The notes below the pieces were generated by a model. The model had not been told where the DNA came from. It saw only the letters and a program-made list of their open reading frames with translations, and ran no database searches. This document shows, piece by piece, positions 25,159 through 37,045 of a stretch of 64,000 bases of DNA. The DNA comes from Gemmatimonadota bacterium. GTDB taxonomy: Bacteria; Gemmatimonadota; Gemmatimonadetes; Gemmatimonadales; GWC2-71-9. The DNA is taken from the NCBI GenBank assembly GCA_003169895.1, contig PNAE01000007.1, positions 502,967 through 566,966 on the forward strand, written 5' to 3'. The translations under genes were made by a program, and so were the position numbers. Each line of letters begins with the position of its first letter. Position 1 is the stretch's first letter.

Positions 25159-28100
25159 ACGCACCAGCGGAGCCGCCACCGCCGGCCCCTGAGCCCGCTG
25201 CCGGCGGACGCACGCGTAACCTGTCGGCGCCGTGGATTTCCCGCCCGGTCATGACGACGCTGATCATGGGCGGCATCCTGATCTTCGGCATCGCCGCCTA
25301 CCGCAGTCTGCCCGTGGCCGACCTGCCGACGGTGGACTACCCCACCATCTCGGTCGGAGCTTCGTTGCCCGGTGCGAGCCCGGAAACGATGGCCTCGTCG
25401 GTTGCGACGCCGCTCGAAAAGCAGTTCTCGACCATCGCCGGACTGAGCGCGATGACGTCATCGAGCCTGCAGGGATCCACCAGCATCACGCTGCAGTTTG
25501 ACCTCACCCGCGACATCGATGCCGCGGCTGCCGACGTGCAGGCCGCCATCACCCAGACGGCGCGCACCCTGCCGACGACACTGCTGCCGCCGTCATACCG
25601 CAAAGTCGATCCCTCCGCGGGCGCGATCATTCTCTACGCGTTGACATCCCCGACGTTGCCACTGTCCACGCTCGACGAGTACGGTGAGAACCAGGTCAGC
25701 CAGCAACTGTCCACGGTGAGCGGCGTCGCGCAGGTGCAGGTATACGGCTCGCAGAAGTACGCGGTGCGCATCCAGCTCGACCCGCAGGCGCTCGCCGCGC
25801 GCAAGATCGGCATCGATGAGGTCGCCAGCGCCGTCAACACCGGCAACGTGAATCTGCCCACCGGCATTCTGTGGGGAACCGACAAGGCGTACGCGGTCGA
25901 AACCGACGGCCAGCTGCACAATGCCGCGGCATTCCGGCCGTTGATCGTGACCTGGCGCGACGGTCGGCCGGTGCGTCTGCAGGATCTTGGCAACGTTGTC
26001 GACAGTGTGCAGGATACCAAGGCCGCCGCGTGGTTCGGCAACGCCGACGGTACCGTCGCCCGCGGTATCGTGCTGGCGATTCAGCGCCAGCCCGGCACGA
26101 ATACGGTGACCGTGGCCCGCGCGGTGCGCGACCAGATGGCGCAGATGACCCGCACGCTGCCCGCGTCGGTGAAGGTGACGACCATTTACGACCGCTCGCA
26201 ATCGATCGACGCGTCGGTCAAGGACGTCAAGTTCACGCTCTATCTCACGCTGTTCCTCGTGGTGATGGTCATCTTCCTGTTCCTGCGAAACGTCTCGGCG
26301 ACGATCATTCCCAGTCTCGCACTTCCGATGTCGCTGGTCGGCACCTTCGCGGTGATGTACCTGCTCGGTTATTCGCTCGACAACCTCTCGCTGATGGCAC
26401 TGACGCTGTCGGTCGGCTTCGTGGTCGACGACGCTATCGTCATGCTCGAAAACATCGTGCGGCATACCGAGATGGGCGAAAGCCCGCGCGAGGCCGCCTA
26501 TCGGGGTTCGGCGGAGATCGGCTTCACCATCCTGTCGATGACCATGTCGCTGGTCGCGGTGTTCATTCCAGTGCTGTTCCTCGGCGGACTGATCGGGCGC
26601 CTGTTCCACGAATTCGCCGTGACCATCGGCGTCGCGATCCTGGTGTCGGGCTTCGTATCGCTCACGCTTACGCCGATGCTGTGCAGCCGGTTCCTGCGCT
26701 CCGGGCACCGCGATGACGGCAAGGGCAGGCTGGCGGGCATGTTCCAGTTCACTGAAGGGATTTACGAGCGGACGCTGCACCGCTACGACCGGTCGTTGCA
26801 ATGGGTGATGCATCACGCGCGACTTGTGTTCGCCTTTTCCGGGCTGATCCTGGTCGGCACTGTCCTGCTGGCGCGGGCGGTCCCCAAGGGATTCATCCCG
26901 TCCGAGGACCAGAACCAGCTCCGGATCACGACCGAGACGTTGGAGGGAACCTCCTTTAACGGAATGTACCGGCATCAAGTCATGGCGATGAACGTGGTGG
27001 CGGCGGATTCCAACGTCGCCGGGTTCATGTCGGCGATGGGGAGCGGTGGCGTGGGATCGACGTCCAATCAGGGGCGCTTCATCATCCGGCTGAAGGATCG
27101 CACGGACCGAAAGCTTTCCGCCGACGAGGTCGCTCGCGAGCTCCAGGGCAAGCTTGCCCAGGTTGCCGGGCTTCGTGCATTCGTCCAGAATCCACCGGTG
27201 ATCAATATCGGTGGCCGGCAGTCCAAGAGCCTCTATCAGTATACCCTGCAGGGCGCGGACATTGATGAGCTCTACCGCACCTCGCAGGCGATGCAGGCGC
27301 GGATGACCGACATGAAGCAGCTGCGCAACGTCACCAGCGACCTCCAGATCAAGAATCCGCAGGTGCAGCTCAGCATCGATCGCGATCGCGCGTCGGCGGT
27401 GGGCGTCACCATGCAGCAGGTCGAGGACGCCCTGTACGACGCCTATGGCGCCCGGCAGATTTCGACGATCTACACCAGCACCAACCAGTACTGGGTGCTG
27501 ATGGAACTGCTGCCGCAGTACCAGCGCGACCTCAATGCGATGTCGTTGATATCGATTCGCGGCAGCAATGATCAGCTCATCCCGCTAACGGCGCTGGCCC
27601 ATGTCCGTGAGGACATCGGACCGCTCACCGTCAACCACTCCAGCCAGCTACCCGCGGTGACCATTTCGTACGACCTCGCGCCCGGCGTCTCGATCGGTGA
27701 TGCCCTGACCGAGATCAACCGCCTCGCGGCGGGGATCCTGCCACCGACCGTCACCGGCGCCGCGGCCGGCACGGCCCAGGCGTTCCAGGACGCGCAGCAG
27801 GGACTCACCATCCTTCTGATCCTCGCGATGGTGGTGATCTACATCGTGCTCGGCGTGCTATACGAAAGCTTCATCCATCCGCTCACGATCTTCTCGGGCC
27901 TGCCGTTCGCCGGATTTGGCGCCTTGCTGGCCCTGATGATCTTCCATATGGAACTCAGCGTGTATGCGTTCGTCGGCATCATCATGCTGATCGGCCTCGT
28001 CAAGAAGAACGCCATCATGATGATCGACTTCGCGGTCGAGGCCGAAAAACGGGGCAAGTCGCCGCGCGAGGCCATCCATGAGGCCTGCATGGTGCGCTTC

Positions 28101-28346
28101 CGGCCCATCATGATGACGACGATGTCGGCGCTGATGGGGACCCTGCCGATCGCGCTCGGCACCGGTACCGGGGCCGAATCGCGTCGTCCGCTTGGTGTCG
28201 CGGTTGTCGGCGGCCTCGCCGTGTCGCAGCTGATCACCCTGTACGTCACCCCCGTGGTGTACGTATGGTTCGACGAAATGCGACTGCGGTTTGCCAAGCA
28301 ACACGCCCCGTCACCGGCGCAACACCAGGCCGCCGAGGCGATATAG
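25155..28346 (+). CDS. RND multidrug efflux permease (MdtB/MdtC-type) with apparent AUA start
   Basis: A 1063-residue inner-membrane proton-driven pump. It has TM4 proton-relay aspartates in GFVVDDAIVMLEN, TM10 lysine in LIGLVKKNAIMMIDF, two large periplasmic loops and the VDYPTISV porter motif. An ATG at 25251 would delete the conserved N-terminal NLSAPWISRPV helix, which is encoded in frame upstream. The only start-like codon in the right place is ATA 25155, overlapping the adaptor's TAA (ATAA), with AGGAGAGG 6 nt upstream. ATGA would be expected; ATA may be a real rare start, a mutation or an assembly error. Third gene of the tolC-adaptor-pump operon; substrate unknown. Confidence 0.93.
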   Translation: MNAPAEPPPPAPEPAAGGRTRNLSAPWISRPVMTTLIMGGILIFGIAAYRSLPVADLPTVDYPTISVGASLPGASPETMASSVATPLEKQFSTIAGLSAMTSSSLQGSTSITLQFDLTRDIDAAAADVQAAITQTARTLPTTLLPPSYRKVDPSAGAIILYALTSPTLPLSTLDEYGENQVSQQLSTVSGVAQVQVYGSQKYAVRIQLDPQALAARKIGIDEVASAVNTGNVNLPTGILWGTDKAYAVETDGQLHNAAAFRPLIVTWRDGRPVRLQDLGNVVDSVQDTKAAAWFGNADGTVARGIVLAIQRQPGTNTVTVARAVRDQMAQMTRTLPASVKVTTIYDRSQSIDASVKDVKFTLYLTLFLVVMVIFLFLRNVSATIIPSLALPMSLVGTFAVMYLLGYSLDNLSLMALTLSVGFVVDDAIVMLENIVRHTEMGESPREAAYRGSAEIGFTILSMTMSLVAVFIPVLFLGGLIGRLFHEFAVTIGVAILVSGFVSLTLTPMLCSRFLRSGHRDDGKGRLAGMFQFTEGIYERTLHRYDRSLQWVMHHARLVFAFSGLILVGTVLLARAVPKGFIPSEDQNQLRITTETLEGTSFNGMYRHQVMAMNVVAADSNVAGFMSAMGSGGVGSTSNQGRFIIRLKDRTDRKLSADEVARELQGKLAQVAGLRAFVQNPPVINIGGRQSKSLYQYTLQGADIDELYRTSQAMQARMTDMKQLRNVTSDLQIKNPQVQLSIDRDRASAVGVTMQQVEDALYDAYGARQISTIYTSTNQYWVLMELLPQYQRDLNAMSLISIRGSNDQLIPLTALAHVREDIGPLTVNHSSQLPAVTISYDLAPGVSIGDALTEINRLAAGILPPTVTGAAAGTAQAFQDAQQGLTILLILAMVVIYIVLGVLYESFIHPLTIFSGLPFAGFGALLALMIFHMELSVYAFVGIIMLIGLVKKNAIMMIDFAVEAEKRGKSPREAIHEACMVRFRPIMMTTMSALMGTLPIALGTGTGAESRRPLGVAVVGGLAVSQLITLYVTPVVYVWFDEMRLRFAKQHAPSPAQHQAAEAI

Positions 28347-28405
28347 GTACCGATCGGTCTCGAGCAGACTGGTCGACTTCACCTGAAGTGAGCGGACAGG
28401 GGATC

Positions 28406-30691
28406 ATGCTTCCGATCGTACCGCTGGTTCGATTACTGGGCGCCATGGCCGGAATTCACGGCACCGTGCACGCCGCCGGACACGGTCCAGCCGCAGGCGT
28501 GCACGTGGAGCTGGACGGCGCTGACCGCTGCGCAACCGACTCCGCTGGTCGCTACGCCGTCATCGGCGTGGCGCCCGGGTCGCACGCCGTCCGGTTCGTG
28601 GCCCCCGGCTACGAAACCCGCCAGGTCACCGTGCTCCTCGCCGATTCATCCGATCTCGCTCTCGACGTGGAACTCATTGTCGAGCCGGTCTTCCTGCCAC
28701 CGATCGAGGTTGTCGCCGCCACGCCGGACACCACGCCCGCCGGCGGCGGCGCCAGTTCGTCGCAATGGCATGAAGCTGGGCACTATCGCTTTGCCCCCGG
28801 TTGGCAGGCCGATCAGCCCGCGGGTGGCGCCGACATCCAGCAGTTGGTCGCCGCCGTGCCTGGAGTGGCAACTCGCGGCGACAACAGCACGGCGCTGAGC
28901 ATCCACGGCGGCCGGGGATCGGAAAACCTGATCCTCCTCGACGGAATTCCGGTGATCGGCGCGGTGCATTTTGCCGGCGCATCCAGCGCCATCAACCCGG
29001 ACGCGATTGCCGCACTTGACGTCCATACCGGCATCAGTTCGGCCCGATACGACGGCGCACTTTCCGGCGTTATCGAGCTCGAGACGGCGGCAGCCCCGTC
29101 GCGCACTGTTCAGCTGACGGGCACCCTCTCGTCCACCGACGTCCGGTCGGTGATGCGGGCACCGCTCGGCAGCACCGGCGGCCTGTTGCTCGGTGCGCGC
29201 ACCAGCTTTCGCAACCTTTTCACCGACCGCACCGGCTTGGGCGCACTCAATGGGTACGACGACTTCATCGCAACGGCACACCTGTCCGTCGGCGCCGGAA
29301 CGCTCCGCATCGTGTCGTTCGAGAGCAGTGATCGCCTGCATTGGACACCGTTCGCCGGGGGCGGTATCCAGTCGGCGGACGACCCGCTCAGCGGCGCACC
29401 ATCGGCCCCCGACGCCGCCGACTGGCGCAGCGGCACCGTCGGCGCCACCTGGACCCAGGCACACGGCGCGTACGGTGCGTGGCACGCCGCCGCTTGGTGG
29501 ACCGGAAGCAGCGCAAGCATCGCACTGCTCAGCCGGACGCAGGCCCAGCAGCTGAACAGCACCATCGGCGAGTTCGGCCTCTCAACCGAGATGCGGCAGC
29601 GCTTTCGCGCCAGCACGCTGACGATCGGCGGAGAGCTGCAACAGCCGCGCACGTCGTACGTGGTCACCACTCGGCCGCTGTCGCAGGCCGACAGCAGCAC
29701 TCGCCTCGCGCTGGGCGCGGCTCCGGTCCTCGGATCCCTCTATAGCGAGTGGGATTGGCACGGGCCGTCGCCGGTCGACTTCCGGGCCGGCCTTCGCGCG
29801 AGCACCGATTTCCGCGGCACGATCAACCTCGACCCGCGGCTGGTCGTGAATCTGCACCCTGACCAGGCAACACGCTTCGAGGCTGGCTTCGGTCGCACGC
29901 ACCAGACCGTACAGTCGATGCTGAACGAAGAGAACCTCACCAGCTCGATGGCCGCGCCCGCGTTGCCGGTGATCTCGGTCAGCAACATCCCGACCGCGAC
30001 CGCCGACCAATGGCTGCTCAGCGTCGATCGCCAATTGGGCGGCGCGGTGTCGCTCGGGCTGGACGCTTATCTCCGGCGGTGGAGTAACGTCGTGGTGCCA
30101 GCCAGTTCGACCAGCAGCTTTCTCGTCGCGGGTACACCCCTCTACGGTGACGGTCGTGCCCAGGGAGTGATTGCCAGCGCCGCGTTCGTGCATGGAGCGC
30201 TGGCCATGCATATGTCCGCCGGGTTGGCGACGGCGCTGCAACAGGCTGGCGGGGCCACCTACCACACCGGATTCGATCAGCCGTGGTCGTTCGCCGGCGA
30301 TGCCGCGTATCACGTCACGCGGCGAACCACGCTGCAACTCCGCTGGACGACCAGTGCTGGTCAATCCGTCACCCCGCTCAGCCCCGGCATCGAGTGGCGT
30401 CCCTATCAGCCCGCCACCGGCACCGGAGAGATGGAAGGCGTGGCAACCAACCTCCCCGGACCCCTCAATGCGGCCCGGCTCGCCGGGCCGCTGCGCATTG
30501 ACCTCGGCGTGCGCCACACCTGGCTGGTCAATCTCCACGGCGGGCAGAGCGGAATCAGTGCGGCGCTGCGCCTGGAGAACCTGCTCAACCGACCCGACCC
30601 GGTCGGCATCATGGCGCGCCCCGACGGGTCGTTGCAGCTGCTCCGGGGCACCCCGCGGGGACTGATCTTCGAGGTCGACTGGGTCTATTGA
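28406..30691 (+). CDS. TonB-dependent receptor-like outer-membrane protein
   Basis: A 761-residue protein. A carboxypeptidase-regulatory-like (SusC/CirA N-terminal) beta domain spans ~residues 15-95 (IHGTVHA, DSAGRYAVIGVAPGSH), then a plug domain (LSIHGGRGSENLILLDGIPV, ISSARYDGALSGVIELET), then a C-terminal barrel of alternating strands ending in aromatic Tyr (VDWVY). No STN signalling domain is present, despite the ECF sigma factor downstream. The signal sequence is weak. ATG 28406 follows GGACAGGGG; the frame is open upstream only through the pump gene's end. Substrate unknown; the barrel is short for a siderophore receptor. Confidence 0.8.
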   Translation: MLPIVPLVRLLGAMAGIHGTVHAAGHGPAAGVHVELDGADRCATDSAGRYAVIGVAPGSHAVRFVAPGYETRQVTVLLADSSDLALDVELIVEPVFLPPIEVVAATPDTTPAGGGASSSQWHEAGHYRFAPGWQADQPAGGADIQQLVAAVPGVATRGDNSTALSIHGGRGSENLILLDGIPVIGAVHFAGASSAINPDAIAALDVHTGISSARYDGALSGVIELETAAAPSRTVQLTGTLSSTDVRSVMRAPLGSTGGLLLGARTSFRNLFTDRTGLGALNGYDDFIATAHLSVGAGTLRIVSFESSDRLHWTPFAGGGIQSADDPLSGAPSAPDAADWRSGTVGATWTQAHGAYGAWHAAAWWTGSSASIALLSRTQAQQLNSTIGEFGLSTEMRQRFRASTLTIGGELQQPRTSYVVTTRPLSQADSSTRLALGAAPVLGSLYSEWDWHGPSPVDFRAGLRASTDFRGTINLDPRLVVNLHPDQATRFEAGFGRTHQTVQSMLNEENLTSSMAAPALPVISVSNIPTATADQWLLSVDRQLGGAVSLGLDAYLRRWSNVVVPASSTSSFLVAGTPLYGDGRAQGVIASAAFVHGALAMHMSAGLATALQQAGGATYHTGFDQPWSFAGDAAYHVTRRTTLQLRWTTSAGQSVTPLSPGIEWRPYQPATGTGEMEGVATNLPGPLNAARLAGPLRIDLGVRHTWLVNLHGGQSGISAALRLENLLNRPDPVGIMARPDGSLQLLRGTPRGLIFEVDWVY

Positions 30692-30843
30692 TACCGGCCT
30701 GACCGAGCCTCCTGGCACAACCGTCTGGTCTCGCGCGCTCCTCGGCTGTGACCAGTCTCACAAATTCACCGCCTTCCTTCGCGGGCCTATCGCCGATGCG
30801 ATTGCACCATCAAGCATCCCGACGGTCCGGACCGCGTGATTCC

Positions 30844-31356
30844 ATGGACCAGTTCGATGCCGAGTTCGATCGGCTCTTTGAGCAGCACTTCGCCCGGCTG
30901 TTTCGCTACCTCGATCGCAGTCTCGGCGACGCGCAGCTTGCCGCCGACCTGGCGCAGGAGGCGTTCGTCCGCCTGTTCGATCGTGGCGAGATGCCCGATG
31001 AACCGATCGCCTGGTTGATCACAGTGGCCGCCAACCTGCTGCGCGACGACAAGCGCCGCACCACGCGGCGACTACGACTGCTCGCCCGCGCTCCCGACGA
31101 TGTCCCGCATGCCACGGCCCCGCCGGATCCGGCGGCTGCGATCGACCAGGCCGAGCGCCGCGATCAGGTGCGCGCGGCGCTCGCGCGGCTCGCGCCGCGT
31201 GACCGCGACGCGTTGCTGCTGCGGCACTCAGGCTACAGCTACCGCGAGATCGCGCTGGCACTCGGAATCACGGAAACCGGCGTGGGCACTGTCCTGCTCC
31301 GCGCGGGCGCGTCGTTTCGGAAGGCCTATCAGGAGCTGCACGGTGACCCAGACTGA
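30844..31356 (+). CDS. RNA polymerase ECF-type sigma factor
   Basis: A 170-residue sigma-70 family protein with region 2 (EHFARLFRYLDR, ADLAQEAFVRLF, WLITVAANLLRDDKRR) and region 4 (LAPRDRDALLLRHSGYSYREIALALG). There is no region 3, as expected for ECF sigma factors. ATG 30844 begins the conserved region; an in-frame ATG at 30748 would add an unconserved 32-residue leader. It is co-transcribed with the anti-sigma gene, whose start overlaps its stop by 14 nt. The likely targets are the membrane/Rieske genes just downstream. Confidence 0.9.
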   Translation: MDQFDAEFDRLFEQHFARLFRYLDRSLGDAQLAADLAQEAFVRLFDRGEMPDEPIAWLITVAANLLRDDKRRTTRRLRLLARAPDDVPHATAPPDPAAAIDQAERRDQVRAALARLAPRDRDALLLRHSGYSYREIALALGITETGVGTVLLRAGASFRKAYQELHGDPD

Positions 31357-32107
31357 CATGATCCATCCGGCGGACGAGACGCTGCTCGCGCTGCTGCACG
31401 AGCAACCGGTCGAGAACGCGACGGCAACTCGCTCGCACGTCACCGCGTGCGACGACTGCGCCAGTCGGTGGCGGCAATTATCGGCAGATAACGATGCCGT
31501 CGCGGGGCTGCTCGGCGTGCTCGATCATCCGGCCCCGGCAGTTCGCGCCGGCTCGACGCTCTCGTTCCGGCGGCGGCATCGGTTGCGTCGTGCGCTTCTC
31601 ATCGCCGGCTCTGCCGCGACGCTCGCGGTCGCGGCCGCCGCGACGGTGGCGCCAGTTTCGCCGTTGCATCAATGGATCCACGATGCCGTAACGGGGCGCG
31701 TGGTCCCCAGCGATGCGCCGCGCCCGCTGTCGCCGCCGCCGGCCGCGCCGGCAGCCCTCGCATCCGGCATCGCCATCCCCGCCACCCGGAGGCTCGTGGT
31801 CGTCTTCCGTCGTGAGCCGACGAGCGGCGTCGTCGAGATTGCACGCTCGGACACGGGCGACGTGACCTTCCGTTCTCGCGGGGGGACGACCGCGTATGCG
31901 GTCGCTTCGAACCACGTCTCGATCGATAATCAGGCGCCCGCGGTTGCGTACTTCATCGGCATCCCGCCTGCCGTCCAGCAGGTCCGCATCCTGGTCGGCT
32001 CGCGTGTGCTGCTGCGCTGGCCCGAGGATTCTGCGCGCGTCGCGCTGCCCGAGCCGTCGGTGCGCGCGAGGATCGTGCTCGCTGCACCGCGCGAGAACGT
32101 CCCCTGA
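31343..32107 (+). CDS. Zinc-binding anti-sigma factor, single-pass membrane protein
   Basis: A 254-residue protein. The N-terminal ZAS motif is His32-x3-Cys36-x2-Cys39 (SHVTACDDC). A membrane helix follows near residues 82-105 (Ala-rich, after RRHRLRR). The ~140-residue outer part has no recognised fold but contains FecR-like beta strands. It should hold the ECF sigma factor at the membrane. GTG 31343 was chosen: AGGAG lies 7 nt upstream inside the sigma gene, and the start overlaps the sigma stop, giving translational coupling. ATG 31358 is too far from that site. Confidence 0.85.
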   Translation: MTQTDMIHPADETLLALLHEQPVENATATRSHVTACDDCASRWRQLSADNDAVAGLLGVLDHPAPAVRAGSTLSFRRRHRLRRALLIAGSAATLAVAAAATVAPVSPLHQWIHDAVTGRVVPSDAPRPLSPPPAAPAALASGIAIPATRRLVVVFRREPTSGVVEIARSDTGDVTFRSRGGTTAYAVASNHVSIDNQAPAVAYFIGIPPAVQQVRILVGSRVLLRWPEDSARVALPEPSVRARIVLAAPRENVP

Positions 32108-32127
32108 ACATCATCCGGGGAGGTCAC

Positions 32128-32820
32128 GTGTCTCCGTTTCCCGCGCAACCGCAACCGTTCACGGCCTCACACCGGCGCCGTGCTGCGTGGCGAATCGCCG
32201 CTGCCACTGTAGTGGCCAGCCTGACATCCGCCCATCGCGCGGTCGCGCAACGCGGTGACTCGCTCGTCATCCCGCTGACCAACCGCCAGGCGGCTTGCGG
32301 GCCGTGCGGCGCTGGTCCAACCGCGGGCCTGGCTCCAATGAGCGGGGAGGTTGCGGCGCAGGACACCACCCGCCGGCGGGCGATCGAATACAGCTCGTCC
32401 TACTTCACTCGACTGACGATTCATCGCATCGGCAGCTACGTCGAGCTGCCGTTGTTCGCGACCGAGTATGTACTGGGACAGAAGCTGCTCACCGCCGAGC
32501 GTAACAATCCACACGTCCGGTCGAGCCTGCGAGGTCCGCACGGACTCGTCGCGAGCGGTCTTGAAGTGCTGTTCGCCGCCAATACCGTGACCGGGGTGTG
32601 GAACCTGGTCGAGGCCCGGCACGATCCGGCGGGCCGCACGCGGCGATGGATTCACAGCATCGCCATGCTCATTGCCGACGGCGGCTTCGTCGCGAGCGCC
32701 CAGTCGGCGGGAGCCGCGCGCCGAACCGACAGCGGCGCCAATCAGCATCGCAACATCGCCATTGGCTCGATGGGCCTCGCGACGGCCGCCACCCTGATGA
32801 TGTGGCTCTGGAAGAACTGA
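32128..32820 (+). CDS. Membrane protein with paired transmembrane histidines, unknown family
   Basis: A 230-residue protein with a signal-like N-terminus (to about residue 40) and about four membrane segments: IHRIGSYVELPLFATEYVLG, GLVASGLEVLFAANTVTGVW, IHSIAMLIADGGFVA and a C-terminal helix. Two histidines sit at the starts of helices one and three, a layout that could bind heme b. It has two CxxC-like cysteines (ACGPCGA) just after the signal region. GTG 32128 follows GGGGAGG at 5 nt. It overlaps the next membrane gene (TGATG) and belongs to the sigma/Rieske cluster. I do not recognise the family; an electron-transfer role is inference from context. Confidence 0.75.
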   Translation: MSPFPAQPQPFTASHRRRAAWRIAAATVVASLTSAHRAVAQRGDSLVIPLTNRQAACGPCGAGPTAGLAPMSGEVAAQDTTRRRAIEYSSSYFTRLTIHRIGSYVELPLFATEYVLGQKLLTAERNNPHVRSSLRGPHGLVASGLEVLFAANTVTGVWNLVEARHDPAGRTRRWIHSIAMLIADGGFVASAQSAGAARRTDSGANQHRNIAIGSMGLATAATLMMWLWKN

Positions 32821-33353
32821 TGATCGCATCGTTGATTGCGACGCTCGCGCACTGGTTCGCCCCTTGGCAATCGCTCTATGCCGACTCCAAGGTGCTGGAG
32901 ACGACCGTGACGTCGGCGCACATCGTTGCCACGCTCGTCGGCGGTGGCATCGCCGTCGCCGCTGATCGTGACACGCTGCGCACCGAACGCACCGAGGCCG
33001 GCATGGGCCCGCAGGCGCTCGACGAGCTGCACGCGACGCACCGCCCCGTGATGATCGGGCTTGCGGTGCTGTTCCTCAGCGGTGCCGCGCTCGCCGCCGC
33101 GGACATCGCCACCTTCGCCAAGTCGCCCGTGCTGCTGATCAAGCTGGGATTTGTGACGCTGTTGTGCATCAATGGCACCTTCCTGGCGCGGACCGAACAT
33201 CTCCTGCGCCGCCGGGTGTTCGCCGAGATCGCTCGACCGGCGTCGCCGGACACCACGCCGGTGCTCTGGCGCCGCCTCCGGGCGGCGTCCTGGCTCAGCA
33301 TCACCCTCTGGATCTGCACCGCGGTGGCGGGAACCGCGCTGCTCAATGTCTGA
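32820..33353 (+). CDS. Four-helix membrane protein, unknown family
   Basis: A 177-residue protein with four clear membrane helices (around TSAHIVATLVGGGIAVAA, THRPVMIGLAVLFLSGAAL, PVLLIKLGFVTLLCINGTFL and ASWLSITLWICTAVAGTALL). Histidines at SAH and ATH lie at the starts of helices one and two. ATG 32820 overlaps the previous stop (TGATG). It lies between another four-helix protein and two Rieske proteins, so a quinone- or heme-linked role is likely but not shown. Confidence 0.75.
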   Translation: MIASLIATLAHWFAPWQSLYADSKVLETTVTSAHIVATLVGGGIAVAADRDTLRTERTEAGMGPQALDELHATHRPVMIGLAVLFLSGAALAAADIATFAKSPVLLIKLGFVTLLCINGTFLARTEHLLRRRVFAEIARPASPDTTPVLWRRLRAASWLSITLWICTAVAGTALLNV

Positions 33354-33397
33354 CGCCCGAGCGCCATGCCTTGACCCTCTTTCACTGGATACCGTCC

Positions 33398-33937
33398 ATG
33401 AGTGACCGTCATTCCGATGCCGACCAGTTCGAATGCGATGCCTGCCCGTGGGCCCAGAATCGCCGCGAGTTCGTCCGCCAGACCGGGCTGGCCGCCATCG
33501 GCGCGCTGGTCATGGTCGGCATACCGCCCGGCTTGGCCGCGAGCGTCACTCCCACGCGCACCGCGCCGCGCCGCCGGGTCGGCGCCAATCCGAGTTACCC
33601 CATCCCGGCCCAGGATGGCGTGCAGATCGATCACGACAATCAGGTGATCCTGGTCCGCTGGAAGAACGAGGTCTACGCGTTCAACCTGTCGTGCCCGCAC
33701 CAGAACACCGCACTCAGGTGGAACCAGGGCGACGGCCAGTTTCAGTGCCCGAAGCACCACTCCAAGTATCAACCGGATGGCACCTTCATCTCCGGCCGCG
33801 CGACGCGTAACATGGACCGCTTCACCCTGACTCGATCTGGCAATGAGGTCATCGTGAACGTGAGCGCGATGCACAAGAACGACGTCGATCCCGCCGGCTG
33901 GAGCGCGTCGGCAGTACACGTGGGGGACGGCGCGTAA
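33398..33937 (+). CDS. Tat-exported Rieske [2Fe-2S] protein
   Basis: A 179-residue protein. It has a twin-arginine signal (NRREFVRQTGLAAIGAL) after a 22-residue Cys-containing N-terminal region (ECDACPW), then a Rieske fold with Cys99-Pro-His101 and Cys117-x2-His120 (CPH...CPKHH) as cluster ligands. The full ligand set is present. It should sit in the periplasm, anchored by its uncleaved Tat helix, and pass electrons. ATG 33398 is 44 nt after the preceding gene; the frame is open upstream only inside that gene. It abuts a second Rieske gene at 1 bp. Confidence 0.88.
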   Translation: MSDRHSDADQFECDACPWAQNRREFVRQTGLAAIGALVMVGIPPGLAASVTPTRTAPRRRVGANPSYPIPAQDGVQIDHDNQVILVRWKNEVYAFNLSCPHQNTALRWNQGDGQFQCPKHHSKYQPDGTFISGRATRNMDRFTLTRSGNEVIVNVSAMHKNDVDPAGWSASAVHVGDGA

Positions 33938-33938
33938 G

Positions 33939-34373
33939 ATGTCCGGCCCCGGCTGCAGCTCCATCACACGCCGCGAGCTACTGGAACGGACGCTTGCCGG
34001 GCTGGGTCTGGGCGCATTGGCCGCGTGTGGTGCGAGCCTGTTTACCGCTCCGTCGATCACCGCGTTTACCATCAAGCTGGCGGACTTCCCCTCACTGGCA
34101 TCGGTCGGTGGCCTGGCCATCGTCGACGATGGCGCGCGTTCCGGCGACCCGGTCGCCGTGGCGCGAACCGGCACCAGCACCTTCGTGGCGCTATCGCTGA
34201 TTTGCCCGCATCGCGGCTCCGCCGTGCAGATCTCTGGATCAGGCTTCTATTGCCCGGGCCACGGTGCCACGTTCGCGGCAAACGGATCGTGGACCGGCGG
34301 GCAGCCGACCTCCAATCTGGGCAGCTACCGCATCAGCTACGATACGACCAACGGCACGTTGCAGATCGGATAG
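33939..34373 (+). CDS. Second Tat-exported Rieske [2Fe-2S] lipoprotein
   Basis: A 144-residue minimal Rieske protein with twin arginines (SITRRELLERTLAG) and a lipobox-like LAAC, so it may be a Tat lipoprotein. Cluster ligands are Cys89-Pro-His91 (CPHRGSAV) and Cys105-x2-His108 (CPGHGATF). It starts 1 bp after the stop of the first Rieske gene. The two proteins differ in loop lengths and second-box residues (CPKHH versus CPGHG), so they are not a recent duplication; they probably have different potentials or partners. Confidence 0.88.
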   Translation: MSGPGCSSITRRELLERTLAGLGLGALAACGASLFTAPSITAFTIKLADFPSLASVGGLAIVDDGARSGDPVAVARTGTSTFVALSLICPHRGSAVQISGSGFYCPGHGATFAANGSWTGGQPTSNLGSYRISYDTTNGTLQIG

Positions 34374-34473
34374 TCTACCGCCCGTCGGTCCACCAGCTCG
34401 ATGCACCACGTCGTCCCGGGCGAAGCGAGCTGTAAGTCTTTGTATTTCAATGCCTTAACTGGTGCATTCAGGC

Positions 34474-34502
34474 TTGTTTCCCGTCCCGCGATCCGGTATA
34501 TT
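34474..34502 (+). promoter_or_regulatory. gyrA promoter, predicted leaderless
   Basis: TTGTTT at 34474-34479 and TATATT at 34497-34502 are separated by exactly 17 bp, a canonical sigma-70 geometry. The GTG at 34511 begins 8 nt after the -10 box, where transcription should start, so the mRNA would have no leader. The same 8-nt gap from a TAnATT box is seen at hutU and hutI. Confidence 0.65.
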
Positions 34503-34510
34503 TCGGAGTT

Positions 34511-37045
34511 GTGCCTCCGGCCCTGCCGGACCGCCCATTTCCCCGTCTCCGGACCCCGATGACCGCGCCCAATTCCCGCGAACGGATCGTCCCGCGCCTG
34601 ATCGAAGACGAGCTGCAGCAGTCGTTCATCAACTATTCGATGAGCGTGATCGTCTCGCGCGCACTCCCCGATGTCCGCGACGGCCTCAAGCCGGTACATC
34701 GCCGGATTCTCCATGCAATGAACGAGCTCGGCCTGCTCCCGAATCGCGCGTTCAAGAAGTCCGCCACGGTGGTCGGCGACGTGCTCGGCAAGTATCACCC
34801 GCACGGCGACCAGTCCGTCTACGACGCGCTCGTGCGCATGGTGCAGGAGTTCTCGCTAAGGTACCCGCTGGTGGACGGTCAGGGGAACTTCGGGTCGGTG
34901 GACGGCGATCCCGCAGCGGCCTATCGCTATACCGAATCCCGGCTCACCCGCATCGCGCTCGAGATGCTGGCCGATATCGACAAGAACACCGTCGATTTCG
35001 TGCCCAACTTCGACGACCAGCGCGAAGAGCCGTCGGTGCTGCCGGCCCGGCTGCCCAACCTGCTGATCAATGGCTCCAGCGGGATTGCGGTCGGCATGGC
35101 GACCAACATCCCGCCCCACAACCTTCGCGAAGTGGCCAGCGCCATCGCGGCGCTGGTGCGAAATCCGGACACGACCATCGACGAACTGCTCACGCACATC
35201 AAGGGTCCGGATTTCCCCACCGGTGCCTATATCTACGGCGAAGCTGGCATTCGCGAGGCGTACGAAACCGGCCGTGGCCGCGTCGTCATGCGCGCGCGGG
35301 TCAAGATCGAGGAGAACGAGCGGACCGGCAAGAGTGCGCTGATCATCACCGAAATTCCCTACCAGGTCAACAAGGCGACCCTGCACACCAACATCGCCGA
35401 GCTGGCGATGGCAAAGCGTGTCGAGGGCATCAGTGGGGTGCGCGACGAGTCGGACCGCGAGGGCATGCGCCTGGTCGTCGAACTCAAGCGCGACGCCATC
35501 GCCCAGGTGGTGCTCAACGGGCTCTACAAGCACACCGCGATGCAGAGCACCTTCGGCGTCATCAACCTCGCGCTGGTGAACGGCGCGCCGAAGGTCATGT
35601 CGCTCAAGGAAATGCTGCAGCACTTCATCAGCCATCGGCACACCATCATCGTGCGCCGGACCGAGTTCGACATCGCGGAGGCAAAGAAGCGCGAGCACAT
35701 CCTCGAGGGCCTCAAGATCGCCGTCGACAACATCGACGAGGTGATCCGGATCATTCGCGGTTCGGCCGACACGCCGACGGCGGACGCAGCGCTGCGCGCC
35801 CGGTTCGGCCTGAGCGAGACCCAATCGGACGCCATTCTCAACATGCGCCTCGCCAAGCTCACCGGCCTGGAGATCGACAAGCTCGAGGCGGAACTGACCG
35901 AGGTGCGCGCGACCATTGCCGAGCTGCAGAGCATCCTCGACTCGCGCGAGAAGCGCATGAAGATCCTCGTTGACGAGGTCGAGGAGCTGGCGACCACGTT
36001 CGGCGACGAGCGCCGCACCGAGATCCTCAAGGACCAGGGCGAGTTTTCCGTCGAGGACCTGATCGCCGAAGAGGACATGGTCATCACCATTTCGCACACC
36101 GGATACATCAAGCGCATTCCGGTGACCACCTACCGGCGCCAGCGCCGCGGCGGGCGCGGCCTGACCGGAATGGAAACCAAGGAACTCGACTGGGTCGAGC
36201 ATCTCTTCATCGCGTCGACCCACGACTATCTGATGTTCTTCTCCGATCGCGGCACCGTGTACTGGCTCAAGGTGCACGAGATCCCGCAGGGCGGCCGTGC
36301 CGCGCGCGGCAAGCCGGTGGTCAACTGTATCAACATCCGCGAGGGCGAGCGGGTCGCGGCGCTGGTGCCGGTGCGGAAATTCGGCGACGACGAGTGGTTG
36401 ATGTTCGTCACCCGCAACGGCACGGTGAAGAAGACGGTGATATCGGCGTACGGCAATGTGCGCACCATCGGCATCAACGCCATCAACATCGATCCGGATG
36501 ACGAGTTGATCGACGTGCAGAAGACCCGCGGCAACGATGACATCGTGCTGGCGACCTCGTTCGGCATGAGCATCCGCTTTCACGAGACCGACGCGCGCGA
36601 AATGGGCCGCGCGACGTCGGGGGTCAAGGGGATCGAGCTCGACAAGGGCGACCAGGTGATCGGTATGGTCGTGGTGCGCGAGCGGGCGGAACTGCTGGTG
36701 GTGAGCGAGCGCGGCATCGGCAAGCGCAGCGCGCTCGGCGACTACCGGGTTCAGCGCCGCGGCGGCAAGGGCATCATCACGATGCAGCAGACCGAGAAAA
36801 CCGGCAAGCTGATAGCGCTCAAGGATGTGCTCCCCGAGGATGAACTGATGATGATCACCAAGGGTGGCGTGATCATCCGCTGTCCGGTTGAGGGCATTCG
36901 CGTCAGCGGGCGCAACACGCAAGGCGTGAAGCTGATGAATCTCGATCCGGGTGATCAGATCGTCGACGTGGCCCGCGTGCAGAAGGAAGAAGGCGAAGGG
37001 CTGGAGGACGACGTCGAAGCGGAGGCGCCGGTTGCCGAGGCGTGA
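34511..37045 (+). CDS. gyrA: DNA gyrase subunit A
   Basis: An 844-residue (828 from ATG 34559) type IIA topoisomerase subunit that supercoils DNA with GyrB. The breakage-reunion domain has the catalytic tyrosine Tyr124 (numbered from ATG 34559) in AYRYTESRL. The C-terminal pinwheel has the GyrA-box QRRGGRG, which separates it from ParC, and further GyrA-type repeats. In the quinolone region [15 protein letters not shown], the position usually Ser/Thr (E. coli Ser83) is Gln85. GTG 34511 is annotated because a promoter places the transcript start there. ATG 34559 matches the usual GyrA N-terminus ([16 protein letters not shown]) but has no ribosome site. The stop overlaps the next gene by GTGA. 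Confidence 0.97.

Follow-up and report, generated by a model that had tools for sequence, protein, structure and literature searches.

A conserved M1-M2-Rieske gene unit of Gemmatimonadota predicted to transfer electrons from the inner membrane to the periplasm

A 64,000-nucleotide stretch of a Gemmatimonadota genome (GenBank assembly GCA_003169895.1, contig PNAE01000007.1, positions 502,967 to 566,966), referred to as the window, harbors six consecutive genes coding for an extracytoplasmic function (ECF) sigma factor, a membrane anti-sigma factor, two small membrane proteins (M1 and M2) and two Rieske proteins (Rieske 1 and Rieske 2) exported by twin-arginine translocation (Tat). M1, M2 and Rieske 1, usually along with Rieske 2, form a conserved unit of Gemmatimonadota. 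Judging from sequence features, this unit is probably an inner-membrane-to-periplasm electron-transfer system, which in some genera would be controlled by an adjacent cassette of TonB-dependent receptor, sigma factor and anti-sigma factor. A bolder proposal, put forward only tentatively, is that of an undescribed respiratory or redox complex unrelated to bc complexes. It would combine a distinct type of diheme four-helix cytochrome with a heme or quinone subunit resembling HemJ/CopD and either one or two Rieske proteins exported by Tat, and in some genera it would be switched by a dedicated, receptor-linked ECF sigma system. Literature searches among open-licence papers retrieved no description of this gene set.

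Conservation of the unit in Gemmatimonadota

The distribution of the module was surveyed in 394 Gemmatimonadota genomes, the counts referring to the matches listed and kept for analysis. Among these, 120 genomes had M1, 116 had M2 and 131 had Rieske 1; the M2 count omits a weak tail of matches (E about 1e-11 and weaker), which are probably other CopD-like proteins. All three genes were present in 104 of the 394 genomes, and in 96 genomes the trio was placed within 5 kb on one strand, giving 100 clusters, of which 92 showed the order M1-M2-Rieske 1. These counts do not represent independent events, as the genomes are related, and draft assemblies break some of the clusters apart. The preliminary description of this DNA had staked the module beforehand on the occurrence of the four genes together in other genomes. 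This was indeed seen, with the trio clustered as above and Rieske 2 joining it in most, not all, of the loci looked at. In the first set of relatives, 22 of 61 had M2, with M1 and Rieske 1 adjoining almost every time. The flanking genes varied by genus and included peptidases, malic enzyme, Omp85 and a histidine kinase; since such neighbors were not conserved across the loci examined, the M1-M2-Rieske 1 unit stands alone.

The in-depth searches covered Gemmatimonadota genomes. A pattern-based scan of GTDB contigs, made with M1 only, returned two Gemmatimonadetes contigs, a result that does not show absence elsewhere, and close M1 relatives from a named collection were from Gemmatimonadetes metagenome-assembled genomes. 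A tblastn search of plasmids gave no match with M1 and M2 and only generic Rieske proteins with Rieske 1. M1 genes without M2 or Rieske 1 were observed at L025:7803-8489 and L026:3840-4442 and in genomes G075, G188 and G297, a genome having as many as three copies; some members of the M1 family may thus serve a different role. At L026:4442-5023 and L031:2977-3612, M1 adjoins genes for small secreted proteins that begin alike (SGSWKLNAEASD, AGVWKLNEERSD). In locus L040, the module is split between Rieske 2 and M2 by an oppositely oriented gene for an ABC-F-type ATPase (L040:6877-8864); a 675-amino-acid open reading frame (ORF) between the same two genes was rejected as a gene, being antisense to the ATPase gene.

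Predicted cofactor sites of M1, M2 and the Rieske proteins

M1 (32128..32820, forward strand) is predicted to contain a signal peptide and a linker, followed by four moderately hydrophobic membrane helices (hydropathy peak about 1.1–1.4). Four histidines, H99, H138, H176 and H207, are located at the helix starts, the helices being assigned from a low-confidence model and hydropathy. All four were invariant in a 24-member alignment as well as in every row with a letter at the position (62–63 of 63 rows, found by profile and including the members used for profile building). Other invariant residues were T155, G156, N159 and G117. Because the helices alternate in direction, the first and third histidines would lie on one side and the second and fourth on the other. 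This layout is the arrangement of a bis-histidine diheme bundle, from which we infer diheme binding. Most likely, M1 is a membrane cytochrome with four helices and two b hemes, H99/H176 lying at one face and H138/H207 at the other.

The same plan is found in cytochrome b561-type proteins (PF01292, DUF4079), which like M1 have four core helices with one histidine each on alternating faces, the bis-histidine pairs being formed between helices 1 and 3 and between helices 2 and 4. Profile matches to b561-type families were obtained for 4–12 of the 24 M1 members, all weak and none seen at the cut-off; half of the members matched DUF4079, and others matched DUF420 and cytochrome b561. The best E-values within the b561 superfamily were 5.2e-5 (DUF4079) and 0.0025 (Ni_hydr_CYTB). 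None of the matches for which scores were shown reached a family cut-off, and M1 of the window had no Pfam match and no credible NCBIfam match. Unlike the b561-type proteins, M1 has a signal peptide, a long linker and constant partners in M2 and Rieske 1. The designed diheme four-helix bundle 4D2 has one histidine per helix and threonines contacting the ligand histidines (PMC10400981); M1 likewise has one histidine per helix and an invariant Thr-Gly in helix 2, while 4D2 differs in being a water-soluble design. A profile match of M1 to 4D2 (E 3.1e-4) was discarded, as it summed three repeat copies, each of them insignificant. An internal-repeat test on the four M1 helices was modestly positive (background fraction at or above, 0.006–0.37) and for this reason is not counted as proof.

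M2 (32820..33353, forward strand) has four strongly hydrophobic predicted transmembrane helices and the invariant residues H34, H74, K108, N118 and G119, of which H34, H74 and K108 were retained in every row with a letter (58–59 of 59). Among 23 M2 members, matches were obtained to DUF6644 (13 members), DUF2214 (12), UPF0093/HemJ (8) and CopD (2), with a best DUF6644 E-value of 4.2e-7 and two members passing the cut-off of that family (28.1 and 30.7 bits vs 27). M2 of the window itself showed no Pfam match and no credible NCBIfam match. Alignments of the M2 members cover the greater part of DUF6644 and DUF2214, and invariant His and Lys residues are present. M2 could be placed as a remote relative of the DUF6644/DUF2214/HemJ/CopD superfamily, from which it is set apart by the scores of most members being below the cut-off, by a Rieske operon partner and by the lack of any CopC or copper motif noticed. 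HemJ binds a b heme, a point not settled by the literature looked up, and M2 probably binds one heme or forms a quinone site. Both M1 and M2 had been described earlier as four-helix proteins with histidines at helix starts. They are predicted to be all-helical, with four main helices following an N-terminal part, and the histidines proved to be real, four being invariant in M1 and two in M2.

Rieske 1 (33398..33937, forward strand; PF00355 9.4e-10; ligands C99/H101/C117/H120) and Rieske 2 (33939..34373, forward strand; PF00355 3.4e-8; ligands C89/H91/C105/H108) scored 38.7 and 33.7 bits, respectively, against a PF00355 cut-off of 20.3. The C-x-H and C-x-x-H motifs are kept in both, and the second boxes read CPKHHSKY in Rieske 1 and CPGHGATF in Rieske 2, in line with the earlier claim of complete cluster ligands and differing second boxes. 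The claimed Tat export was likewise borne out by twin-arginine signals in both proteins and, in addition, a lipobox cysteine in Rieske 2, which is a predicted lipoprotein. The disulfide cysteines of bc1-type Rieske proteins are found in neither protein of the window.

Among the relatives of Rieske 1, the twin arginines and all ligands were conserved in 60 of 60, S122 and Y124 were retained, a GRATR..DR motif was invariant, and the positions of the bc1 disulfide cysteines were mostly occupied by Asn and Lys. The corresponding Ser and Tyr raise the potential in bc1 Rieske proteins. A CxxC motif directly precedes the twin arginines of Rieske 1 (residues 13–23, 33434–33466) in 58 of 60 relatives. 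The best solved relatives of Rieske 1 were a bc-type Rieske domain (9rk3) and AioB. In Rieske 2, the twin arginines at positions 11–12 and the lipobox Cys30 were conserved in all 39 rows that have a letter at these positions. The second box varies among its relatives, some of which, unlike the protein of the window, possess the disulfide cysteines.

Rieske 2 appears to be fused to a second Rieske domain as a tandem protein of about 270 amino acids in two genera (L032:4377-5198 and L037:6134-6946). Downstream of the double-Rieske gene in L037 lies a gene for a 788-amino-acid repeat protein (L037:3753-6119), the C-terminus of which (CATSGCHVPGK...) appears c-type-cytochrome-like by eye; it may be an electron acceptor in that genus.

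The receptor, sigma factor and anti-sigma factor cassette

Upstream of M1 in the window, the regulatory cassette opens with a TonB-dependent outer-membrane receptor (28406..30691, forward strand; start codon picked by eye; PF07715 plug 1.2e-10; PF13620 1.4e-10), which has an N-terminal CarboxypepD_reg domain. The preliminary description made no mention of this receptor gene. It is followed on the same strand by the ECF sigma factor of 170 amino acids (30844..31356), which has regions 2 and 4 (PF04542, 1.7e-10; PF08281, 9.8e-11) and no region 3, and which scored 73.1 bits against 42.9 for TIGR02937. The anti-sigma factor (31358..32107, forward strand) contains a zinc-anti-sigma-like (ZAS) H-x3-C-x2-C motif, one predicted transmembrane helix and a conserved periplasmic domain, and it had no Pfam match. 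In the window the motif reads HVTACDDC, and seven relatives space these residues identically. The zinc-binding N-terminus is missing in two genera, at L033:3382-4029 and L083:11907-12560, where the membrane helix and the periplasmic domain are retained. Of 24 genomes searched, each of the 10 that carry the cassette had one full-length anti-sigma factor, located at the module, and elsewhere there were only weak N-terminal matches; the search model contains nine of these ten sequences, with G133 outside it.

The cassette adjoins the module in the window and in loci L027, L028, L033, L034, L035, L074, L076, L077, L079 and L083, with only receptor and sigma factor detected in L079; in L078, the receptor is at a contig end. 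This adjacency was found in six genera and in three arrangements, namely upstream colinear, downstream colinear and divergent. The sigma/anti-sigma pair is not part of the core; it is a clade-specific addition that accompanies the TonB receptor. In the genus of the window, the genes from sigma factor to Rieske 2 are all codirectional, the sigma operon being continuous with the module and preceded by one motif site. The positions reported earlier for the six genes were all correct. The description of their junctions as overlapping or of 1 bp held for three of the five; the spacings are +1, +20, -1, +44 and +1 bp, so the set is operon-like yet not tight throughout.

A putative promoter motif, GTCACAA-N15-CGYTC, was read from the upstream regions of these same loci, and its presence there is partly by construction, as the pattern was derived from the same sequences. 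The strict pattern occurred 11 times in 917 kb, and all 11 occurrences precede the sigma factor or M1. Spacings of 13, 16, 17 and 20 gave no matches, a spacing of 14 gave three, of which two lie near labelled genes, and order-3 Markov shuffles gave 0–1. Within the single genomes of L033, L034, L077 and L083, the motif was present before both the sigma gene and a separately placed M1. The absence of the strict pattern from other positions, its dependence on spacing and this double occurrence do not follow from how the pattern was derived. The copy in the window, GGCACAA-N15-CGCTC (30714..30740, forward strand), has one mismatch to the strict pattern and lies about 100 bp upstream of the sigma start; the relaxed pattern GKCACAA-N15-CGYTC has this single match in the 64-kb window against 0.05 expected. 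In a search of 12 whole genomes, no additional regulon member stood out clearly against the level of the reversed-pattern control. As the genome-wide background outside the locus was comparable to that control, the sigma factor apparently serves this locus. There is good support for a dedicated sigma factor that regulates its own operon. The self-regulation proposed in the preliminary description receives separate support from the occurrence of one promoter motif before both the sigma operon and the M1 operon; the point to correct in it is that the sigma/anti-sigma pair is clade-specific.

The ECF41 sigma factors recognize the promoter TGTCACA-n16-CGTC, the -35 element of which was reported to be specific for ECF41 (PMC3426412). 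The -35 sequence TGTCACA, the spacing, and autoregulation together with control of one neighboring gene set are common to ECF41 (PMC3426412) and, by prediction, the module sigma factor. Unlike ECF41, the module has CGYTC as its -10 sequence, a separate membrane anti-sigma factor and redox genes as predicted targets, and its sigma factor ends soon after region 4, with no fused C-terminal regulatory domain.

The gyrA gene (34565-37045) directly follows the module in the window, and a gene for an RND-type efflux pump (25251-28346) precedes the TonB receptor; the order pump, receptor, module and gyrA recurs in G001 (L028). An Rfam search of the region gave no match.

Proposed electron transfer and its alternatives

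In the proposed mechanism, electrons from (mena)quinol would cross the hemes and reduce first the Tat-exported Rieske 1 and then the lipid-anchored Rieske 2; the Rieske proteins would then pass them to a periplasmic acceptor encoded outside the cluster. Where the cassette is present, the sigma factor would recognize GTCACAA-N15-CGYTC before its own operon and before the M1 operon, and since both carry the motif, the set would switch itself on when the anti-sigma factor senses an envelope signal.

Several observations weigh against this reading. Neither M1 nor the M2 of the window is named by any family scoring above its cut-off, and only two M2 members exceed the DUF6644 cut-off among the matches scored. 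The helices of M1 are only moderately hydrophobic, and positively charged residues in all loops make the topology uncertain. AlphaFold models, computed for M1 with two relatives and for M2 alone, were four-helix models of low confidence (predicted local distance difference test, pLDDT, 59.7 and 53.4), too weak to be used for cofactor sites; Foldseek searches with them gave no match below E 0.001, and generic four-helix matches were not used. Some genomes have M1 without M2, or Rieske 1 by itself, and no acceptor gene is conserved beside the module across the loci examined. The unit is also not the only quinol-oxidizing route of its source genome (3.42 Mb, 13 contigs), as bc-type and NrfD-type complexes are present, represented by a Rieske/cytochrome b pair (C9:63460 and 63809) and two NrfD-family genes (possibly alternative complex III). 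The earlier statement that cytochrome b/c1 and an arsenite oxidase large subunit are lacking is therefore correct for the locus, where no large-subunit gene was found among the ORFs at 28000-37000 read by eye, and not for the genome, given this Rieske/cytochrome b pair.

Owing to the TonB receptor, the main rival is a periplasmic metal or metallophore reductase, in which M1, M2 and the Rieske proteins would reduce an imported chelated metal for release, as FsrB/FoxB do. FsrB of Bradyrhizobium is a periplasm-acting ferric-siderophore reductase of the FoxB family, inner-membrane reductases working with TonB receptors (PMC10760861), and copper TonB receptors linked to respiration exist (PMC12914433). 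Receptor and sigma cassette are tied to the module in six genera; the receptor, however, is nearby in just 12 of about 60 module loci and is not a constant neighbor, no metal transporter is conserved beside the module, and M1 and M2 match no FoxB-type family model. The module belongs to a different protein family and, unlike FoxB/FsrB, includes Rieske proteins, and this role is considered unlikely.

Somewhat less likely still is a maturation system, in which the CopD/HemJ-like M2 and an M1 weakly resembling DUF420/CtaM would handle copper or heme for oxidase assembly, the Rieske proteins keeping the redox state of thiols, metal or porphyrin. The DUF420 protein CtaM is required for oxidase assembly and has a proposed role in copper trafficking (PMC13344008). 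The weak matches of M2 members to UPF0093/HemJ and CopD and of M1 members to DUF420 are consistent with such a function. Against it, no oxidase or assembly gene was seen recurring beside the module, and the unit is present in about a quarter to a third of the sampled genomes, whereas oxidases should be more general. Moreover, we know of no Rieske proteins in heme or copper maturation systems, which counts against this role.

A diheme-like four-helix protein and a Rieske protein are the core of a bc complex, and with the potential-raising Ser and Tyr of Rieske 1 they would fit a minimal bc-like Q-cycle complex having M1 as cytochrome b and Rieske 1 as mobile high-potential acceptor. Such a complex is nevertheless improbable. 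M1 has one histidine per helix, as against two in each of two helices in cytochrome b of bc1; PF00033 is not matched at the locus, its sole match in the genome being on another contig beside its own Rieske gene; and neither cytochrome c1, another conserved c-type partner nor a Rieske 1 disulfide is present. The module Rieske proteins share fold and ligands with those of bc1/b6f complexes and AioB, but their scores are far below the equivalog cut-offs (for AioB, 31.3 and 28.2 bits vs 95.65), and no bc1 cytochrome b or AioA gene adjoins them. Least probable of all is a module that acts mainly as a redox sensor reporting its state to the anti-sigma factor, with no electron flux for metabolism. 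Such a role would suit the operon continuity in the genus of the window and the conserved CxxC of Rieske 1; against it, M1-M2-Rieske 1 is intact at most loci, which have no sigma pair, and the sigma factor is predicted to act on the module itself.

An electron-transfer unit from inner membrane to periplasm remains the favored interpretation. To our knowledge, a membrane partner has been identified for few Rieske proteins other than those of bc complexes and oxygenases. The compact set, found across Gemmatimonadota with all candidate cofactor ligands invariant, is a defined object for expression, and the shared promoter motif together with the seemingly devoted sigma/anti-sigma pair offers a route to the inducing signal and hence to the physiological role of the module in a poorly studied phylum.

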